Positions 12,133-56,446 of a stretch of 64,000 nt of DNA are shown here, piece after piece. The position numbers were made by a program, and so were the translations under genes. The stretch's first letter is position 1, and the number at the start of each line of letters is the position of its first letter. Source of the DNA: Gammaproteobacteria bacterium (lineage in GTDB: Bacteria; Pseudomonadota; Gammaproteobacteria; Pseudomonadales; Porticoccaceae); NCBI GenBank assembly GCA_003235325.1, contig QJWQ01000039.1:1-64000 (forward strand), in the 5' to 3' direction. The notes beneath the pieces are model-generated. The model was not told where the DNA came from, did not search any database, and was given only the letters and a program-made list of their open reading frames with translations.

Positions 12133-13071
12133 TTACTGGTTGTTAAACAGGACTTCCCTGTTGATACCCTGGCGAACCATGATATCCCGCAGTCGCCGCA
12201 GGGCCTCCACCTGAATCTGGCGGACCCGCTCCCGGGTGAGCCCGATCTCCCGCCCGACCTGCTCCAGTGTGGCTACCTCATAGCCCATGAGACCGAAGCG
12301 ACGGGCCACAACTTCCCGCTGTTTGTCGGATAACTGCTCCAGCCAGGCGGCAATGGCGTGAGTCAGGTCGTCATCTTCCGCCAGCTCCTCGGGATCGCAG
12401 GGCTGCTCGTCGGCTATGGTCTCCACCAGCATTTTGCTGCCGTCCCGTGTGGCCGGCACATCCATGCTGGTCACACGCTCATTGAGCTCGAGCATGTGGG
12501 AAACCTCCGCTGAAGGCCGGTCCAGCAACCGGGCAATTTCATCAGCTGAGGGGTCGTGATCCATGGTCTGGGCCAGCTGTCGCGCGGCCCGGAGACAGGC
12601 GTTCAGCTGCTTGACGATATGAATCGGCAGGCGGATGGTTCGGGTCTGGTTCATCAGCGCCCTTTCCATGGTCTGCCGAATCCACCAGGTGGCGTAGGTG
12701 GAGAAACGAAAACCCAGTTCCGGATTGAATTTCTCGATGGCCCGCATCAGGCCGATATTGCCCTCTTCGATCAGGTCCAGCAACGCCAGGCCCCGGTTGA
12801 CATAGCGACGGCCGATCTTGACTACCAGCCGCAAATTGCTTTCGATCATCCGCTGCCGAGCAGCCTCATCACCCTGCTGCACTTTTCGCGCAAGCGTGAT
12901 TTCCTCTTCAGCCGTCAACAGAGAGGCATAGCCGATTTCCTTGAGATACAGACTCGCAGCATCAAAGATCTCGTCCCGCGACTCCCTGGGTATATCAGTA
13001 ATCTCGTCTTCTCCCTGCGGAGAGTCGTCCTGATCTTCCCCGTCATCAGACATATCCGAACCCGTGTGCAC
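12133..13071 (-). CDS. rpoS: Stationary-phase sigma factor RpoS
   Basis: RpoS directs RNA polymerase to general-stress and stationary-phase promoters. The 312-residue protein has region 1.2 ([21 protein letters not shown]), region 2 with [38 protein letters not shown] and [11 protein letters not shown], region 3 from [11 protein letters not shown], and region 4 ending with the helix-turn-helix [21 protein letters not shown]. The lack of a long region 1.1 and the neighbours nlpD and fdxA mark it as RpoS and not RpoD. The start is the ATG at 13071 or the ATG six codons in. Transcription may also start inside or before nlpD, as known for other species. Confidence 0.97.
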
Positions 13072-13137
13072 AATTATTTCATGATGTATTTCTGCCGGCG
13101 GTTACATTAACGCCTAAGCCGGCGGTATAGCAATGCC

Positions 13138-13923
13138 TTATTGTCTGGGCAGCAGGCGCGTGGGGTCTATGGGGCGACCATTCTGGCGGATTTCAAAATA
13201 GAGTCTGCCACGGTTCGGAGGTTCACTGCCAATTTCGGCTATTTTCTGGCCCCTGCCTACCACCATGCCCTCACGAATGAAAATCTTACGATTGTGGGCA
13301 TAGGCGCTGAGCAGGGTTTCGCTGTGCTTGATAATGATTAACAGGCCGTAACCGCGCAGGCCATCACCGGCGTAGACCACCACACCGGGGGCGGCGGCGA
13401 GCACTGATCCACCCGGGGTCGCGTGGATATTAAGACCCTTGAACACCCTGCTACTGTCATATTCACGCGTTACCCTGCCCTGCGCTGGCCACTGCCAGCT
13501 CAGGGGTCCGGCAGGCAGACTGACGGCGGGGCTTGCGGGCGACGGGGGCATCGTCCTTGGCACAGGAACCACCGACGCTGGCGCTGGAGTGGACCTGGAT
13601 CCAGGCTTGACTGACGGTGTGGCCTTGACCACCGGCGCAGCCCTGGTGGCAGGCGCCACCACTCTGGAAGTATCGAGGCTCAGCCGCTGGCCTGGCCTGA
13701 TGGTGTAAGGCGCGGAAATCCCGTTGGCGGACGCCAGCTTCACCACATCCAGCTGGTAGCGCCAGGCAATGGAGTAAAGCGTATCACCACGGGAAACCAG
13801 GTGGTACATGATACGTTGGGATGGTGGTGGTCTCAGGTCCTGCACGGGAGCCGGAGGTGGCGTCTGGCAGCCACTGACCAGCAGGATCAGCAACAGAGGA
13901 CGGAACCCTGACCAGATCGGCAA
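13138..13923 (-). CDS. nlpD: NlpD-type LysM/degenerate M23 lipoprotein (amidase activator)
   Basis: A 261-residue outer-membrane lipoprotein with lipobox LVSGC (Cys near residue 19), a LysM domain (about residues 40-82, HLVSRGDTLYSIAWRYQ), a Pro/Ala/Val-rich linker and a C-terminal M23 domain. The zinc ligands are lost: FKGLNIHA replaces HxxxD and RLYFEIR replaces HxH, as in NlpD and EnvC, which activate cell-wall amidases instead of cutting peptidoglycan themselves. The start is a TTG at 13923 with GAGGGG 5 bases upstream; no ATG is available. It lies just upstream of rpoS. Confidence 0.93.
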   Translation of the reverse strand: MPIWSGFRPLLLILLVSGCQTPPPAPVQDLRPPPSQRIMYHLVSRGDTLYSIAWRYQLDVVKLASANGISAPYTIRPGQRLSLDTSRVVAPATRAAPVVKATPSVKPGSRSTPAPASVVPVPRTMPPSPASPAVSLPAGPLSWQWPAQGRVTREYDSSRVFKGLNIHATPGGSVLAAAPGVVVYAGDGLRGYGLLIIIKHSETLLSAYAHNRKIFIREGMVVGRGQKIAEIGSEPPNRGRLYFEIRQNGRPIDPTRLLPRQ

Positions 13924-13949
13924 ACTATCCCCTCAACAATCTGTCCCCC

Positions 13950-14882
13950 TCAGAAGGGGTCCCGGCGCCCACCGAGGTATTCAAGTGCCAGCACCAGCAC
14001 CAGCCCGGTAATCATCAACAGAATACAGGCAAGGACGCTGGGGTCGCCCACGGATTGGGCATAACTTGCCGGCCAGAGCAATTCCCGGGTAATGACCACA
14101 GTATTGCCGTGGGCATCGAGCAGGGTTTCCAGGGGGCGTTTCCAGGGCCAGACAATCAGCAGAGATCCCACCAGAAAGCCGGTAAGTAGAGACAGGGTAT
14201 TGCTGCGCTGATGATGCAACAACCAGGACAGCAAACGGGAAAACAGGAGCAAACCGATCAGCGCGCCAACAGCGAAGGTGCCCAGCACCACGAAATCCAG
14301 ACGAGTAACTGCTCCGATAATGACTGAATACATGCCAATCAAAAGCAAAATAAAACTCCCTGAAATGCCCGGCAAGATCATTGCGCAAATTGCCAGCATC
14401 CCGGAGAAGAATACCGCGGCCAGCGATGCACCAACCTGTAGCGGTGGCGACAGGGCCGTGGCGACGGCCAACAGGGTTCCAATAACCAGTGACAGCCACT
14501 GCGGCCAGTCCCAACGGGGCAACTGTCGGCTGACATAGAAAATCGAGGCGACTATCAGGCCAAAAAACAGGGACCAGATCAGCAGCGGGTGGTGGTCAAG
14601 GGAATAGCTCACCAGCCGGGCCAGGGTAAATATACTGCACAGTATGCCGGCCACCAGAACCAGCAGAAAGGTGCCATTGATGGCTTGCCAGAACGCCCGG
14701 GGACCCCGGGTGAATAACGTCTGCACCGATTGGAAATTGATTGATTTAATGGAATCGAGCAATTCGACATAGATGCCGCTGATAAAGGCAATAGTGCCGC
14801 CCGAAACACCGGGAACCACGTCCGCGGCGCCCATCATCAGGCCCTTTACGAATAGCAATGAATAACCGCCAATTGTCCGCAT
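13950..14882 (-). CDS. DUF368 membrane protein, PopT-type undecaprenyl-phosphate translocase family
   Basis: A 310-residue membrane protein with about eight to ten hydrophobic segments and the DUF368 hallmark GAADVVPGVSGGTIAF near the N-terminus, echoed later by ILPGISGSFILL. Members of this family (PopT) have been shown to return undecaprenyl phosphate across the inner membrane for reuse in cell-wall synthesis. Transport here is inferred from family membership. The gene lies between pcm and nlpD, and the isoprenoid and uppS genes that make this carrier are elsewhere in the window. Confidence 0.88.
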   Translation of the reverse strand: MRTIGGYSLLFVKGLMMGAADVVPGVSGGTIAFISGIYVELLDSIKSINFQSVQTLFTRGPRAFWQAINGTFLLVLVAGILCSIFTLARLVSYSLDHHPLLIWSLFFGLIVASIFYVSRQLPRWDWPQWLSLVIGTLLAVATALSPPLQVGASLAAVFFSGMLAICAMILPGISGSFILLLIGMYSVIIGAVTRLDFVVLGTFAVGALIGLLLFSRLLSWLLHHQRSNTLSLLTGFLVGSLLIVWPWKRPLETLLDAHGNTVVITRELLWPASYAQSVGDPSVLACILLMITGLVLVLALEYLGGRRDPF

Positions 14883-14947
14883 TTCACTTCAGCCCCTTGA
14901 TTTGTTCACCGTTGCAGCGCTGCCAAACAAGCCCTTGCGCGGCCGAT

Positions 14948-15589
14948 TCAGCGGACTATACCGCCAAGCAGGGGAACAAATCGCACCCGTTCCAGCACTT
15001 CTTCCTCGAAGTTTTTACTCTCTCCCTGGCGAACAATCAGCCGCAGTTCCTGGCGGCCATCCGCTCCCACCGGGATGATGAGCAAGCCATCCGGGGCCAG
15101 CTGGTGCAGCAGTTCTTCCGGCACGGACTCCGGAGCAGCGGTGCCGATAATGGCATCGTAGGGAGCGTACCGTTCCCAGCCGATACCACCGTCCGAATGG
15201 CCGCAGGTGATGTTGCGCATTTTTAGCCGACGAAACCGTTCCTTCGCCTTGTCCAGGAGGGCTTTGATACGCTCGACGGTATAGACCTGATCCACCAGTT
15301 GAGCCAGCACCGCTGTCTGATAGCCGGAACCGGTGCCGATTTCCAGTACTTTCCTGCGCGCCCCCCGGGAAAGTACCATCTCGGTCATCAGGGCGACAAT
15401 GTAAGGCTGGGAAATGGTCTGTCCATAGCCGATTGGCAGGGACGTATCCTCGTAAGCACGGTGGGCAAGGGCTTCGTCAAGAAATATGTGCCGGGGCGTT
15501 GTGCGAATCACGTCCAGCACTCTTTGGCTGGTGATCCCCTGGTCCTTTAGGCGTTGCACAAGGCGCTCTCTGGTACGCTGCGAAGTCAT
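14948..15589 (-). CDS. pcm: Protein-L-isoaspartate O-methyltransferase
   Basis: Pcm methylates isoaspartyl residues in aged proteins using S-adenosylmethionine, beginning their repair. The 213-residue protein has the SAM motif [16 protein letters not shown], the substrate motif [15 protein letters not shown] and the later [14 protein letters not shown] start at the ATG at 15589 because [10 protein letters not shown] is the conserved Pseudomonas-type N-terminus; a GTG at 15619 in the same frame has a better purine stretch upstream and would add 10 residues. Its usual partner surE is not next to it. Confidence 0.95.
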
Positions 15590-15648
15590 GCCGACGCCGC
15601 CCAGATCAATGGAATTCACCCCTGCGCCCCCTCGATAAAAAAACGCAA

Positions 15649-16641
15649 CTATAGCACAGCGCTACGGTTATTCAGGAGGGCGATCTCCCGCAGCAACACG
15701 GTGGCAAAAGTACCTGTCGGCAATAGAAAGTCCAACTGCAGATCCGAATCGAACCATTGCCACTGAAACCCTTCTGGCAAGAGCACCAGCGGTCTTCTCT
15801 CCTGTTGCAGGCCACTGTGCTCCAGCCCCTGGCACCAGGACTGCCAGGGAAACAACACCCTGCTTTCCAGCGCCGCTACCGCCGGGACTGTTCCCGATCG
15901 TCCACGCCCCCAAAGCGGCCCTTCGGGGACGGCTTCGCCTTCCAGCGGAGTGCGCCACTGGTCGGTACGGACCCGCTCGGCCAGGACCAGGTTAAACATC
16001 CAGGCCCGTGCCGCCGAAAGGTACAGCCCACCCCGCTGGCCTCTGAATCTCGGCCGGTCGCGGCTCAGGATTCGGGCGGCCTCTCGCAGATTTCCCCCTT
16101 CGCGACCAAATCGCTGCTCGCCGAAATAATTGGGCACTCCCCGAGCCCCCAGTGAAAGCAGTCGTTGCTCAAGAGCCTCGCGATTACCGGTCAGGTGGCG
16201 CAAACGAATAGAGAAGTGATTGGCCCGGTGTTGACCCCGCCTCAATTTCCTGCCGTGCCAGCTTTGCTGCAGGTATTGACAACCTTCGATTTTGGGCAAG
16301 TTTGGTAACTGTTCATTGCCGGACAACCGGGGCAAATGCACGCTGAACCATTGGGTTGTTATTGCCCAGCGGTCCTTCAGACCGCAAAAGCCGATGGCCA
16401 TCTCTTCGGTGCCGAAAGCCTCTGTCAGGCATTTTGCGACCCAGCGGCTATTCTGGCCCTCCTTGCGGATCAGCAGGCAGAGGTGTTCCCCCTCGCCGCT
16501 GAAGGGGATATCCATCACTTCCTGCACGCAAAAATCCGAACAACAGGTTCGAAAATCAGCCTGCCACCGAGCCTTGTCCAGACTGAGGGGAAAATCCAGA
16601 GAGAAATCAGTCGATTGCAGCTGACCCTGACTTGTTAACAC
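15649..16641 (-). CDS. truD: tRNA pseudouridine(13) synthase TruD
   Basis: TruD makes pseudouridine 13 in tRNA-Glu. The 330-residue protein has [26 protein letters not shown], the catalytic motif [17 protein letters not shown] (Asp in KDR), the ANHFSIRLR strand and [18 protein letters not shown]. The start is a GTG at 16641; no ATG occurs before the conserved region. It is transcribed towards pcm and away from the retropepsin cassette. Confidence 0.95.
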
Positions 16642-16844
16642 CTGTACTATCCCGTTTAACCTGAATTTCGTTTATTGAGGGCCACGGTTGTCTTTGCCGG
16701 CCAGCATAAACTCGAGGTCAAGCCCTGCCTCAGACATCGATAATCCCTTATCTGAATAGCTCTGCAAGCCAAGCGCGCTTCGAAACTGACAATAAAACCG
16801 GTTTGCAAGGGCAATGTAAAAGCCACACCGGTTCTCAGTAGGCT

Positions 16845-16872
16845 TTGCATCGTCGATGTTAACCTTTATGAT
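16845..16872 (+). promoter_or_regulatory. Candidate promoter of the retropepsin/7TM/ATP-grasp cassette
   Basis: TTGCAT (16845-16850) and TATGAT (16867-16872) are spaced by 16 bases and lie 31 bases before the ATG of the first cassette gene. The flanking 16642-16903 interval has no gene and is more AT-rich than its surroundings. Confidence 0.5.
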
Positions 16873-16903: not shown

Positions 16904-17659
16904 ATGACTTTGACGGGATACAGTTCCTCCAACTCTCTGCAATTCCCAAGAAAACTGGCGACAATTGCCATTTTCGGCATAGCCGTCGCCATGGTTTCCG
17001 GTTGTGAGTCGCTGCTGGTTCCTGCCGAGAAGGCAACATCCGGCGAAGCTGTGTCGGTAACTGAACCGGAACCGGTCGCTGCCGAGGCACCGGTCGACAC
17101 CCTGCCAGTTCCTGCACCACCAACCGAACCACCGCCAACGCCAACGGTAGCGGTGGAACCGGCACCACCGAAACCTGTGGTGCAAAAACCTCTAGTTTGC
17201 CCGGCCCCTAAACCCTGCCCCAAATGTCCGGCGGCCATTCTCAGCGACAAGGTTGTCTTTGGTCAGTTAGAGGATGTTACGGTTTCACCACCCGGTTTTG
17301 TCTACCAGGCCAGGATTGATACCGGCGCAGAAGGCACTTCCGTTCACGCCACCGAAATTGTCAAGTTCGAGCGCGATGGCGAACGCTGGGTTCGATTCAA
17401 CTTAATTCATCCCAAAACCGGAGAGCCCCAGATGCTGGAAAGGGAGGTCTCTCGAAGGGTAAAGGTAAAGCAGGTGGAGTTGGAAGGTTTCGAACGGCGT
17501 CTGGTAGTGATTTTGGATTTGACTATTGGCACCGTCAGTCAGCAAACAGAAGTGTCACTGGTCGATCGCTCCGACATGGAGTACCCTGTGTTGATAGGTC
17601 GTAATTTCCTGCAAAATCAGGCAATTGTCGATGTCAATCAGGAATTTATAGCCAAATAA
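16904..17659 (+). CDS. Retropepsin-like lipoprotein (RimB / PF05618 putative zinc protease family)
   Basis: A 251-residue protein with a short signal sequence ending in lipobox VSGC (Cys near residue 34), a Pro/Val/Glu-rich linker, a CPAPKPCPKCP segment and a C-terminal retropepsin-like domain (about residues 115-250). The catalytic loop is ARIDTGAEGTSVHA, and the closing YPVLIGRNFLQNQAIVDV is typical of the family once annotated as ATP-dependent zinc protease. RimB of Pseudomonas, from the same family, trims glutamate from ribosomal protein S6. This copy is predicted to be membrane-anchored outside the cytoplasm, so its substrate must differ. It leads a three-gene operon. Confidence 0.86.
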   Translation: MTLTGYSSSNSLQFPRKLATIAIFGIAVAMVSGCESLLVPAEKATSGEAVSVTEPEPVAAEAPVDTLPVPAPPTEPPPTPTVAVEPAPPKPVVQKPLVCPAPKPCPKCPAAILSDKVVFGQLEDVTVSPPGFVYQARIDTGAEGTSVHATEIVKFERDGERWVRFNLIHPKTGEPQMLEREVSRRVKVKQVELEGFERRLVVILDLTIGTVSQQTEVSLVDRSDMEYPVLIGRNFLQNQAIVDVNQEFIAK

Positions 17660-17701
17660 TTCATAGCTTGAAGACCCAATCGGGTATGGCAGGTTCTCAC
17701 T

Positions 17702-19225
17702 ATGTCGCCAAAAGGTCAGGTTTACCTTTTCGCCACCCTTTTCATTCTGACCGGCATAGGCCTGATGATTTACAAGGCCACAGTGTTGCATTTTCCCCTG
17801 TGGCCGGACACCGATAGAAAGGTCTGGAGTATCGAGGCAAAACTTACCTTTGATGGTGTTGGCGACCCGGTGAAAGTCGACCTGGCGCTGCCCGAGGCCC
17901 AGGACCGCTATACCATACTCGATGAAATTTTTGCCTCATCGGGTTACGGGTTTTCGATGGAAACCGAAAACCAGCGGCGGGCAGTCTGGACTCGAAGGGA
18001 TGTTCAGGGCCAGCAGACTCTGTACTACAAATTGCAGATTGCTGATCGTCCGGACAGGGATGCCGGCGCCAGCAAACCGGACTTTTCAACCGAGGTGCGC
18101 CCGCCCGTCTGGACCGATGTCGAGAAAGCCGCGGCCACGGGATTGATCCAGTTGGCCCGCCCCCTGTCCTCGGATAATCGCAGTTTCACCCTGCAGATCC
18201 TCAAATTACTCAACGACCGTACCGGCTCCCAGGACGCCAACCTGCTGTTCGAGACCAGCAAAGGTAAATCCAGGGCGGATCTGGCACTGAAATTACTGGC
18301 GGAAGCAGGTATTCCCGCCCAGATGGTTCGGGGCATTCGCCTGGAAAACCGTCTCTACAATCAAAACCCGGTGGAAATTATTGAAATCTATCAGGATGGT
18401 AACTGGTACATCTACGATCCCCACACAGCGACCGCGGGTCTGCCGGAAAATTTCTTCATGTGGCAACAGGGAGGCCGGTCCCTGCTGGAGATCATCGGCG
18501 GCACCAATTCCAAAGTTCGATTTTCGGTTCTCGGCAATGACATACCGGCTAAGACCGTGGCTCTGAGGGAAGCCCGCACGGAAGCCGTGGCACTGGTTGA
18601 CTTCAATATTTACAGCCTGCCCATCGACAAACAAAATGTGTTCAAGATGCTGTTGCTGGTGCCGATCGGCGCCCTGGTCGTGGTGATTTTTCGAGTGCTG
18701 GTAGGTCTGAAGACCTCGGGAACCTTTATGCCGGTACTGATCGCACTGGCGTTTATCCAGACCACCCTCGCCGCCGGCATCATGATCCTGGTGACCCTGG
18801 TCGCCGCCGGGCTCTGGATACGTTCCTATCTCAGCAAACTGGACCTGCTGATGGCATCCAGGTTGGCTGCCGTGTTGATAACGGTGGTCATGTTGATGGC
18901 ATTGTTCAGTGTCCTCAGTTACAAACTGGGACTGGACCAGGTACTGACCATCACTTTCTTTCCCATGATTATTATTGCCTGGACCATTGAGCGTATGTCG
19001 ATCACCTGGGAGGAAGAGGGTCCCAAGGAAGTATTGAGGCAAGGCAGTGGCAGCCTGCTGGTCGCCGTGGTCGCCTATCTCTGTATGAGCAATCGCCTGA
19101 TCGAGCACCTCACCTACAATTTCCCTGAAGTGTTACTGGTGGAATTCGGCATTATTCTTATCCTCGGACAGTACACCGGCTATCGGCTTAGCGAGTTACG
19201 GCGATTCAGGTTCATGGTGGAATAG
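17702..19225 (+). CDS. Inactive transglutaminase fused to seven-helix membrane domain
   Basis: A 507-residue protein with an N-terminal membrane anchor (about residues 5-28), an extracytoplasmic transglutaminase-like region (about 120-260, ending near WYIYDPHTATAGLPENFFMW) and a C-terminal block of about seven hydrophobic helices (from about 310 to 500). Family members are described as catalytically inactive transglutaminase folds fused to a 7TM module; the usual Cys-His-Asp triad is not evident here. It follows the retropepsin gene by 42 bases and precedes the ATP-grasp gene by 14 bases. These three families are known to co-occur. Role unknown; it may bind or present a peptide across the membrane. 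Confidence 0.86.
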   Translation: MSPKGQVYLFATLFILTGIGLMIYKATVLHFPLWPDTDRKVWSIEAKLTFDGVGDPVKVDLALPEAQDRYTILDEIFASSGYGFSMETENQRRAVWTRRDVQGQQTLYYKLQIADRPDRDAGASKPDFSTEVRPPVWTDVEKAAATGLIQLARPLSSDNRSFTLQILKLLNDRTGSQDANLLFETSKGKSRADLALKLLAEAGIPAQMVRGIRLENRLYNQNPVEIIEIYQDGNWYIYDPHTATAGLPENFFMWQQGGRSLLEIIGGTNSKVRFSVLGNDIPAKTVALREARTEAVALVDFNIYSLPIDKQNVFKMLLLVPIGALVVVIFRVLVGLKTSGTFMPVLIALAFIQTTLAAGIMILVTLVAAGLWIRSYLSKLDLLMASRLAAVLITVVMLMALFSVLSYKLGLDQVLTITFFPMIIIAWTIERMSITWEEEGPKEVLRQGSGSLLVAVVAYLCMSNRLIEHLTYNFPEVLLVEFGIILILGQYTGYRLSELRRFRFMVE

Positions 19226-19239
19226 CCAGGAAGCACCTT

Positions 19240-20238
19240 ATGTGGAAACGATATCTGGCATTGAATAATCTGGGCATTCTGGGCATGAATGCCCGCAATG
19301 TTGCCTATATCGCCCGATACAACGAGCGCAAAAATTACCCCCTGGTAGACAACAAGCTCAAAACCAAGGAAGAGGCGATCAAATACGGCATCACCGTGCC
19401 GGAACTGTATGGGGTTATCAGCTATACGGGGGAATTGCGCGACCTTGGCGATCTCCTAAATCCTCTGGAAGGCTTTGCTGTCAAGCCCCTTCGAGGCAGC
19501 GGCGGCAAGGGCATAATCATTATCGTCGGCCGCAAGGGTAATGATTTTGTCAAACCCAGTGGCCAGGTTTTGACCCTTCAGGATATCAAGCATGATATCT
19601 CCAACATCCTCAGTGGCGTTTACAGTCTTGGCGGCAAACCTGATACCGCCATCATCGAATCCCTGATCCATGGAGATCCGCGGCTGCTCAACTTCAGTTA
19701 CGAGGGACTGCCGGATATACGCATCATCCTGTTTCTGGGTTTTCCGGTAATGGCCATGATGCGCTGCCCAACCCACGCATCGGACGGCAAGGCCAACCTC
19801 CATCAGGGGGCAGTCGGCGTCGGTCTGGATATCTGTACCGGGACCGCTATTCGTGCCGTCGAGCACAACCGCCTGGTGGACCGCCATCCCGACACGCAGG
19901 TTTCCTTTGCTGACCTCGCGATACCGGACTGGCACTCTTTGTTATTACTCAGTGCCAAGTGTTATGACATGACCGGGCTCGGTTACATCGGCTGTGATTT
20001 TGCCATGGACATCAAGCGGGGCCCGATGATACTGGAACTTAACGCTCGGCCCGGGCTGGCGGTACAGATTGCCAACGGTATCGGTCTGAAAAAACGCCTG
20101 GAAGTCATTGAAAATCTTGATCACAAGGACTTGCACCCTGAAGAACGGGTGGAGTTTGTGATCAAGACATTTTGTGCGAAATCCAGCATCGTCAGCCAGC
20201 CGTCTGCTCAGACTGCCACCACCAGCACCACAGCATAA
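19240..20238 (+). CDS. Alpha-L-glutamate ligase-like ATP-grasp protein
   Basis: A 332-residue ATP-grasp enzyme related to RimK. It has the ATP-binding glycine loop [17 protein letters not shown], the segment [18 protein letters not shown] and the metal-binding [17 protein letters not shown]. Such enzymes join an amino acid, often glutamate, to a carboxyl group. No signal peptide is seen, so it acts in the cytoplasm, opposite the lipoprotein encoded two genes upstream. AGGA precedes the ATG by 8 bases. The last 31 bases overlap the end of the convergent ispF gene. The acceptor is unknown. Confidence 0.88.
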
Positions 20239-20684
20239 CAGGCAATCCCCTCCCCCCTGCCGGTAAACCCGAGCCTTTCCGTGGTCGTTGCCTTTATATT
20301 GATTTGCTTCGGAAGACAGTCGCAGTCCGCCGCCAGTAACTCCACCATAGCACTGACATGGGGCGATACTCTCGGAGACTGAGTCACCACCGTCAGGTCG
20401 GCATTGCCCAGACGCCACCCTGCGCTGCGGAGCAGATCGATTACGTGGCGCAACAGTTGACGACTGTCGATGCCACGATATTGGTCGTCGGAATCCGGAA
20501 AATGCCGGCCGATATCGCCGAGAGCCACTGCCCCGAGAAGCGCATCGCACAGGGCGTGAATCAGCACGTCCCCATCGGAATGGGCGACCAAACCGCGATC
20601 ATGGGGGATATTCACACCACCGAGAGTGATGTGGTCACCTTCGCCGAAGGCGTGGACATCAAAACCCTGACCGATGCGAATCAC
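20208..20684 (-). CDS. ispF: 2-C-methyl-D-erythritol 2,4-cyclodiphosphate synthase
   Basis: IspF forms the cyclodiphosphate intermediate of the MEP isoprenoid pathway. The 158-residue protein has the zinc motif GQGFDVHAF, the signature [18 protein letters not shown] with the following GDIGRHFPD, and the C-terminal [18 protein letters not shown]. The start is a GTG at 20684 whose sequence overlaps the ispD stop, suggesting translational coupling. Its 3' end overlaps the convergent ATP-grasp gene by 31 bases. Confidence 0.97.
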
Positions 20685-54798: not shown

Positions 54799-56223
54799 TC
54801 AGGTCTGCGTCGGGGTCCGGTCCACCTGACCATCGGTCAGACTGCGCTGCCAAGCCCGCTTTTTCTCAATGGCGGAAATCATCAGTGCCGCGATATCCAT
54901 GCCGGTCGCCGATTCGATTCCCTCGAGGCCGGGGGACGAATTGACCTCCAGCAGCAATGGCCCCTTGGCCGATCGAATCAGGTCGACACCGGCGACATCC
55001 AGGTTCATCGCCTTCGCCGCCCGGGTGGCCATGCGTCGCTCGGCGGAGGTGAGCCTGATCACTGTGGCGCTGCCACCCTGGTGCAGGTTGGCGCGAAATT
55101 CCCCCGGGGCGGCCACCCGTTCGATGGCGGCCACGACCTTGCCGTCGATAACAAAACAACGAATATCGCGACCACCTGCCTCCTTGATGAACTCCTGAAC
55201 CAAAATATTGGCATCGAGGCTTTTGAAGGCGTTGATCACGCTTTCCGCCGCCTTGTTGGTCTCGGCCAGAACCACGCCGGTACCCTGGGTGCTCTCCAGC
55301 AGCTTGATGATCAGGGGCGCGCCACCGACCATACTGATCAGGTCGTGGGTGTCCTGGGGGGAATGGGCGAAGCCGGTAATTGGAATATTGAGCCCGGCAT
55401 CGAGCAGGGCCTGAAGTGAATACAGCTTGTCCCTGGACTTGATAATGGAACTGCCACTGTTGAGGCAGAGCACGTTCATGGTGTCGAATTGCCGCAACAG
55501 CGAGGACCCGTAACGGGTCATGCTGGGACGGATTCGGGGAATAACCGCGTCCAGGTCGGACAGCACATTACCACCGCGGTAATGCACCTGGGGATTTTCG
55601 GCATCCAGCTTCATGTAGCACTGGCGGATATTGAGAAACATCATCTCATGGCCGCGTTCCCTGCCCGCTTCCATGATGCGGCGGTTGCTGTAAAGTTCGG
55701 GATTGCTGGCCAGAACCGCGATTCTCAAACCCTCATTGAGCAGTTCCGCCTTCTGATAGTATTCACCGAGTTCCTGGATCGATATATTCCCCAGGCAAAA
55801 GCTGGCGTCGGGATCCACCAGCAACCTGCCGCTCATGGCTTCGCGGCCAAGCAACATTCGGTATCCCATGGAATCCCGGTTGCTAAGGGTCAACTCAATA
55901 TCCCAGGACTGGTTATTGAGCGTCAGGGCAGTCCTTATCACGTACCTCTTTTCACTTTCGCCGGTGGAACTGCGCACGGATCGCCGATCGATAACCGGTG
56001 CTTCGCATCGAACAGCCACCTTGCGATTTTTCTGCAGGGGATGGACTTCAAATGCCACCCACTGGGTCTCATCACGGGTAAAGACATTGATGTTGCAGGC
56101 GTGCAGGGCCGACGTCTTGGCTCCCGAATCGACCCGGGCCTTGATGGCCGGCAAACCCAGCCCAGCCAGACGGCACCACTCCTGGCTGCCGAGTACTACT
56201 TTTTTTTCGGTGGAAGAATTCAT
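54799..56223 (-). CDS. rimK: Retropepsin-like (RimB-type) domain fused to RimK glutamate ligase
   Basis: A protein of 474 residues joining two normally separate enzymes. The N-terminal part (about residues 8-145) is a retropepsin-like domain of the RimB/PF05618 family with the catalytic loop [14 protein letters not shown] and the closing [18 protein letters not shown]. The C-terminal part (about 170-465) is RimK, with [17 protein letters not shown], the ATP-grasp loops [18 protein letters not shown] and [16 protein letters not shown], and the metal-binding [15 protein letters not shown]. RimK adds glutamates to ribosomal protein S6 and RimB removes them in Pseudomonas, so both directions may reside here in one chain. 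I chose the ATG at 56223, with AGGG 6 bases upstream; an ATG at 56253 lacks a ribosome site. Confidence 0.93.
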
Positions 56224-56446
56224 GGGAGACCCTGTTGGTTGATCAGTAAACATGGATAAGTCGGCATTGACAAGGTGCTTTCGCGCCCGAACAGGTGCGG
56301 CGCACTGGAGACACTATTGAGTCCAGCCGAGCCGCGGCCGTTCTCAGGGGGAAGGCTGTGGGGTGCACAGCACTGAGGAAAAAAGAGCGCGCACTATAAT
56401 GAAAACGGCATTTGCTGAATAGTCGTGACCATGCGCCGGGAAATAT

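Follow-up and report, generated by a model that had tools for sequence, protein, structure and literature searches.

Which system is encoded by the compact three-gene cassette at positions 16904-20238 (+) of the window, as we call the whole 64,000-nucleotide stretch of Porticoccaceae DNA that was analyzed, and what do its products accomplish together? The first-pass annotation had described a lipoprotein retropepsin, a membrane protein with a dead transglutaminase-like domain and an ATP-grasp ligase, and had ranked the cassette as a candidate for an incompletely described system. Its view of the anatomy was accurate: three open reading frames follow each other on the forward strand, separated by gaps of 42 bases (rloA-rloB) and 14 bases (rloB-rloC). 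The first gene, rloA (16904..17659, +), codes for a lipoprotein retropepsin-like aspartic peptidase of 251 aa (PF05618, E 4e-31); the second, rloB (17702..19225, +), for a protein of 507 aa with an N-terminal TM helix, a periplasmic inactive transglutaminase-like region and seven further TM helices (PF14400, 6.5e-48; PF14402, 2.4e-104); and the third, rloC (19240..20238, +), for a predicted cytosolic ATP-grasp, alpha-L-glutamate ligase-like enzyme of 332 aa (PF14397, 4.4e-88; TIGR02291). All of these Pfam matches lie above the curated cut-offs. Gene neighborhoods of this kind were reportedly first described by Iyer et al. in 2009. The system is nevertheless not an undescribed one: the cassette is the rlo operon (rloA-rloB-rloC), which a study of June 2025 characterized in Pseudomonas aeruginosa (PMC12239564).

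In P. aeruginosa, the operon encodes RloA (PA14_41690/PA1768), RloB (PA14_41710/PA1767) and RloC (PA14_41730/PA1766). Cells that lack all three secreted RloA proteases die on salt-free medium, and their biofilm formation, antibiotic resistance and shape are impaired; when rloB or rloC is deleted as well, growth on this medium is fully restored and the other defects are partly relieved, with the suppression of hypo-osmotic lethality being demonstrated in PA14 only (PMC12239564). RloA cuts 8E and 10E but leaves runs of 6E or fewer intact; it cleaves polyglutamate within proteins as well as at their end, and its residues Arg114 and Arg137 are required for activity both in vitro and in vivo (PMC12239564). 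An exopolysaccharide suppressor screen of P. aeruginosa also yielded transposon hits in PA1766-PA1768 (PMC7314104). The earlier view that these families have no established substrate or pathway is thus superseded for RloA, which cuts polyglutamate, and for the genetic position of rloB and rloC upstream of it (PMC12239564), but it retains half of its truth with respect to the substrate in the cell and to what RloB and RloC do.

The window operon shares with its P. aeruginosa counterpart the three families, their A-B-C order on a single strand, an exported RloA (via a lipobox in the window) with a RimB-like domain (PF05618), the DTG aspartic site and the polyglutamate-contact residues, an inactive transglutaminase-7TM protein and an ATP-grasp enzyme. 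The NCBIfam models NF052262 (RloA; 78 bits versus a cut-off of 280) and NF052267 (RloB; 360 bits versus a cut-off of 900) are not reached by the window proteins, yet the former is still among the best-matching family models and the latter is the best-matching one; we read both, which carry the NCBI type 'exception', as narrow, Pseudomonas-centered models. P. aeruginosa additionally possesses RloA2 and RloA3, and the genome from which the window derives likewise has a separate, Sec-secreted RloA3-type protease (L002, 1441-2028 (-), contig C23; 219.8 bits versus the NF052264 cut-off of 210), which carries two domain cysteines that are absent from the cassette RloA.

The claim that the three families travel together was borne out in two samples. 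Among 80 named genome loci gathered with an RloB alignment, the three genes are collinear and on the same strand in every one, an arrangement far beyond chance. In an independent sample of 94 genomes of the class, in which RloC was counted at the TIGR02291 cut-off, coordinates place RloC directly downstream of PF14402 (RloB) in 12 of 12 cases, with PF05618 (RloA) just upstream in 12 of 12; no RloC that scored above the cut-off was separated from RloB, and the cassette RloA adjoins the pair. That the genes are mere neighbors by descent, with no joint pathway, could draw on the frequency of retropepsin-family genes without rloBC: PF05618 is present in 46 of the 94 genomes, being commoner than the full cassette because RimB and solo RloA proteins exist. 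Both linkage counts, the occurrence of the cassette in several unrelated genomic contexts and the genetic epistasis in Pseudomonas already contradict this reading, to which we assign hardly any probability. B-C pairs without a recognizable A gene were seen at L028 (the same place as L144), L122, L125 and L141, several of them on long branches. In G265, G206, G264 and G157, RloB-like 7TM matches lie within far longer frames (648-852 aa) and may belong to another RloB-like family or to fusion proteins.

In the window, the cassette is flanked by truD (15649-16641, -), from which it diverges, and by ispF (20208-20684, -), with which it has a tail-to-tail overlap of 31 bases. This truD/ispF insertion site is common to three more Porticoccaceae/Cellvibrionales loci (L030, L031, L090), and none of these flanking genes was found near rlo in the remaining 77 loci; the genomic context of the rlo cassette therefore differs between lineages. 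Upstream (12133-16641), rpoS, nlpD, DUF368, pcm and truD form a conserved block; surE is absent from the listed open reading frames, and the cassette is inserted between this block and ispF. At L090 (9589-11522, Porticoccaceae), rloA and rloB are each broken into two frames through either sequencing error or decay; the same splits occur at L016 of the genome survey, which may be the same organism. The suggestion that the operon has its own promoter is plausible only: a candidate sigma-70-like site (TTTGCA-17-TATGAT; 16844..16872, +) lies about 32 bases ahead of the rloA start, a position that is suggestive, but the number of such sites (four in 4 kb versus 3.0 +/- 1.9 expected from shuffles) is not above chance. 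Scans for promoters, terminators and RNA structures gave no result above shuffles.

RloA carries the lipobox V-S-G-C (16994..17005, +) with the predicted lipidated Cys34; the +2 residue is Glu and not Asp, and by the +2 rule the protein is probably anchored at the outer membrane. A proline-rich tether with Cys99, Cys105 and Cys108 (LVCPAPKPCPKCP; 17006..17242, +) leads to the retropepsin domain (17243..17656, +), whose catalytic Asp-Thr-Gly motif (residues 139-141; 17318..17326, +) contains the aspartate D139. This Asp is found in 144 of 144 aligned domains and the Gly in 140. Window RloA matches the structures of RloA (PDB 9g58, E 1.5e-15) and RloA2 (PDB 9g59, E 6.2e-14), and two alignments agree in equating the P. 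aeruginosa polyglutamate contacts K46, R92, K95, K97, R114 and R137 (PMC12239564) with R137, R184, K187, K189, R199 and R222 of the window protein, so that all six positions are basic. Arg occupies the R114 position in 139/144 domains and the R137 position in 136/144. Four RloA proteins from Kineobactrum, Haliea and a gammaproteobacterium (L045, L085, L087, L074) have DTA/DSA instead of DTG, and might be inactive or changed enzymes.

The window protein differs from the published RloA structures, which have an intradomain disulfide, in being a lipoprotein whose tether, about 80 residues long, contains three Cys residues and whose protease domain contains none. The domain disulfide has been stated to be conserved in periplasmic orthologues (PMC12239564); in the 80 loci, however, 75 protease domains are free of Cys, and a simple rule-based scan detects a lipobox in 75 of the 80 RloA proteins. 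A FastTree phylogeny of 134 RloB proteins resolves a tethered branch of 106 rows (support 100, length 0.54), with the remaining rows mostly having a soluble RloA with the domain disulfide; the deep joins of this tree are tentative, given that it comes without bootstrap values, that long branches meet in places and that about 20 of the RloA types were judged by eye. Unlike the soluble Pseudomonas-type group, to which P. aeruginosa, whose sequence is not in the tree, would belong judging from the description of its RloA (PMC12239564), the window RloB falls into the tethered branch, among rows with a Cys tether. RloA of this branch is nearly always a lipoprotein, and its protease domain usually lacks the disulfide cysteines. 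We regard the intradomain disulfide as characteristic of the soluble branch, and do not count it among the defining traits of the family. The two-branch split of RloB, with an anchored and tethered RloA on one side, is new, and the architecture of the branch to which the window copy belongs is absent from the describing paper, whose main text mentions neither lipoprotein nor tandem forms of RloA (PMC12239564).

Within the tethered branch, RloA has a tether with Cys-Pro motifs, a helical tether, or a second protease domain fused in, and the tether type switches at least 11 times among the typed rows. Tether cysteines are found in all 40 lipoprotein RloA proteins of the 80 loci that are neither helical-tethered nor tandem; their number is even in 35 of these (two in 20, four in 14), odd (three) in the window, and 84 of the 109 tether cysteines adjoin a Pro. 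Disulfides formed by the tether cysteines thus probably link the protease dimer and replace the intradomain disulfide of soluble RloA, although the odd number in the window speaks against this. Helical tethers occur in Vibrio, Photobacterium, Enterovibrio, Nitrosomonas and others; heptad scores above those of shuffles are largely confined to the Vibrionaceae-type sequences among them (z 1.5-4). A coiled coil for all of them was rejected, as the Nitrosomonas tethers are mostly not above shuffles, and we call these tethers helical only.

The tandem form (7 of the 80 loci, from Endozoicomonas and an Oceanospirillales genome) has two protease domains per chain, each with a DTG motif and detected by Pfam as a separate PF05618 stretch, has no tether Cys, and represents a single clade in the RloB tree (support 100). 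Tandem retropepsin lipoproteins of Endozoicomonas and relatives were noted at L043 (8838-9989), L048 (8799-9989), L049, L063, L065, L072, L077, L150, L151 and L153. With its two DTG domains in one chain, the L048 protein resembles the engineered single-chain (tethered) HIV-1 protease (PDB 4eq0), from which it differs in being bacterial, exported and equipped with a polyglutamate-type pocket. Its model aligns with 4eq0 over 305 columns with low TM-scores (0.27/0.40), and the confidence of the model (pLDDT 65.5, pTM 0.48) is too poor for it to serve as proof of an intramolecular dimer. Taken together, the varied tether architectures suggest that the pairing of an obligate dimer has been solved repeatedly; some RloA proteins of the tethered branch (L142), with neither Cys nor an obvious coil, and the four DTA/DSA proteins indicate that this rule is not universal.

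The AlphaFold2 model of RloB (pLDDT 80.8, pTM 0.64) consists of a TM helix, a periplasmic beta domain and a transglutaminase-like domain (residues 28-307; 17783..18622, +), followed by a membrane domain of seven more TM helices (18623..19168, +). Sequence searches of the PDB with RloB gave no match; a search with the predicted fold matched the beta-plus-transglutaminase part to the transglutaminase-like protease 3isr (E 2.8e-9). The only Cys of RloB, C461, is situated in TM7, so that the periplasmic region has none and the transglutaminase triad is absent. We infer that both ends of RloB are cytosolic, given its eight predicted crossings and the basic residues at its C-terminus and on the loops predicted to face inward. 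The topology proposed in the first-pass annotation, namely a retropepsin outside, a membrane protein, and a ligase in the cytosol, is supported. The membrane part contains the invariant charged residues E430, R431, E437, E438, R495 and E498 (IERMS..WEEEG), and these suggest an active role of RloB, not that of a simple anchor.

As an alternative, RloB might be a receptor that uses its dead transglutaminase domain to sense a periplasmic peptide or the state of the wall and switches RloC accordingly; RloA would act as the off-switch, and the RloC product would be a signal metabolite, not polyglutamate. Dead enzyme domains often serve as binding domains. A sensory function would also sit well with the strong up-regulation of rloABC in V. 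cholerae by VxrB, whose regulatory role has been linked to the integrity of the cell wall (PMC12239564), and with the raised vesicle production of Shewanella vesiculosa after inactivation of an 'inactive transglutaminase' (RloB-type) gene (PMC12096838). Nevertheless, we regard a receptor as quite improbable: the polyglutamate specificity of RloA and the loss of complementation upon mutation of its contact residues point to a glutamate-chain product, and the fold search matched no known receptor.

RloC scores 415.3 bits against TIGR02291 (curated cut-off 314.2). Three parts of a profile built from 17 RloC sequences match the RimK structures 5zct and 4iwx, one around the nucleotide-binding start, one at DIR...NLHRG and one at D...E.N, and hhalign relates RloC to the window's own RimK with a probability of 95.7%. 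In the profile alignment, an N-L-H-Q-G-A motif (19795..19812, +) is the counterpart of NLHRG in RimK, and the ATP-grasp metal-ligand positions D253, E266 and N268 (19996..20043, +), aligned with those of RimK, are invariant in the 17 sequences. RloC has a conserved start of its own (GMNxRNxxYI...DNKLKTK) and an HPDT insert; the window protein contains no PF18030 N-terminal domain and scores only 27 bits against TIGR00768 (cut-off 143). RloC is thus likely, judging from these motifs, to be an active ligase of a family different from RimK, and in the absence of PF18030 its substrate may differ from that of RimK.

RimK forms poly-alpha-glutamate in vitro and in vivo and is stimulated by RimB (PMC11957791). 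The RimB-RimK/RimBK systems for the polyglutamylation of ribosomal protein S6 (PMC11957791) resemble rlo in combining a retropepsin with an ATP-grasp enzyme, both with the same catalytic motifs, but they are cytosolic, have neither a signal peptide nor an RloB, and their RimK possesses PF18030. The window itself contains a RimBK fusion (54799-56253, -) of a RimB-type retropepsin (DSG) with a full RimK including PF18030, whose RimK part matches TIGR02291 only weakly (24.5 bits versus the cut-off of 314). A cytosolic (RimBK) and an extracytoplasmic (rlo) polyglutamate module are thereby found about 35 kb apart. Since rimBK has been reported mainly in Flavobacteriales and Rhodobacterales (PMC11957791), this gammaproteobacterial case extends its range.

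The explanation that we favor, with a confidence only slightly better than even for the whole of it, is that RloC makes polyglutamate, RloB moves or presents it, and RloA trims it as a dimer paired by its tether cysteines. By analogy to RimK, RloC would join L-glutamates in the cytosol at the expense of ATP to form poly-alpha-glutamate, either free or on an acceptor. RloB, with its predicted cytosolic C-terminal tail and its dead transglutaminase domain in the periplasm, would take over the chain from RloC and pass or present it across the inner membrane. RloA, held by its lipid and a flexible Cys-Pro-rich tether, and paired by tether disulfides into a two-fold dimer, would then trim chains of about eight or more glutamates, as its retained residues suggest. 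The untrimmed product may be harmful at low external osmolarity, and this toxicity would explain why the loss of RloB or RloC rescues the loss of RloA in Pseudomonas. Such an order of events, with synthesis inside, passage, and trimming outside, fits the rloB/rloC epistasis observed there.

Alternatively, RloB and RloC might glutamylate an envelope component (a protein, a lipid or a peptidoglycan precursor) with no free polymer being formed, and RloA would remove the tails as RimB does on S6. RimK and RimB set a precedent with RpsF (PMC11957791), RloA cleaves polyglutamate within or at the end of proteins, and the mutants have cell-shape and cell-wall-antibiotic phenotypes. We nonetheless judge this variant to be somewhat unlikely, as the RloB alignment reveals no Glu-rich end common to the C-termini, and neighbor clustering of the 80 loci revealed no conserved fourth gene adjoining the operon.

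Extending the polyglutamate-export explanation to the operons outside the soluble branch leads to a picture that we offer as rather unlikely in its entirety. Rlo would there be an envelope machine that produces and exports poly-alpha-glutamate, possibly as a periplasmic polyanion at low osmolarity; RloB would found a family of exporters, and a lipid-anchored, length-limiting RloA would be pre-dimerized, depending on the lineage, by a Cys tether, a helical tether or a natural two-domain fusion.

The identity of the rlo substrate bears on osmotic survival and biofilms, on the release of vesicles and on sensitivity to beta-lactams. Outside the soluble branch, most of the sampled rlo operons possess a protease unlike the one studied, as it is anchored, has no domain disulfide and carries tethers that look like dimerization devices. 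The anchored architecture of RloA indicates where the substrate should be, and the tandem retropepsin of Endozoicomonas would parallel the duplication that has been proposed to lead from retropepsins to pepsins.
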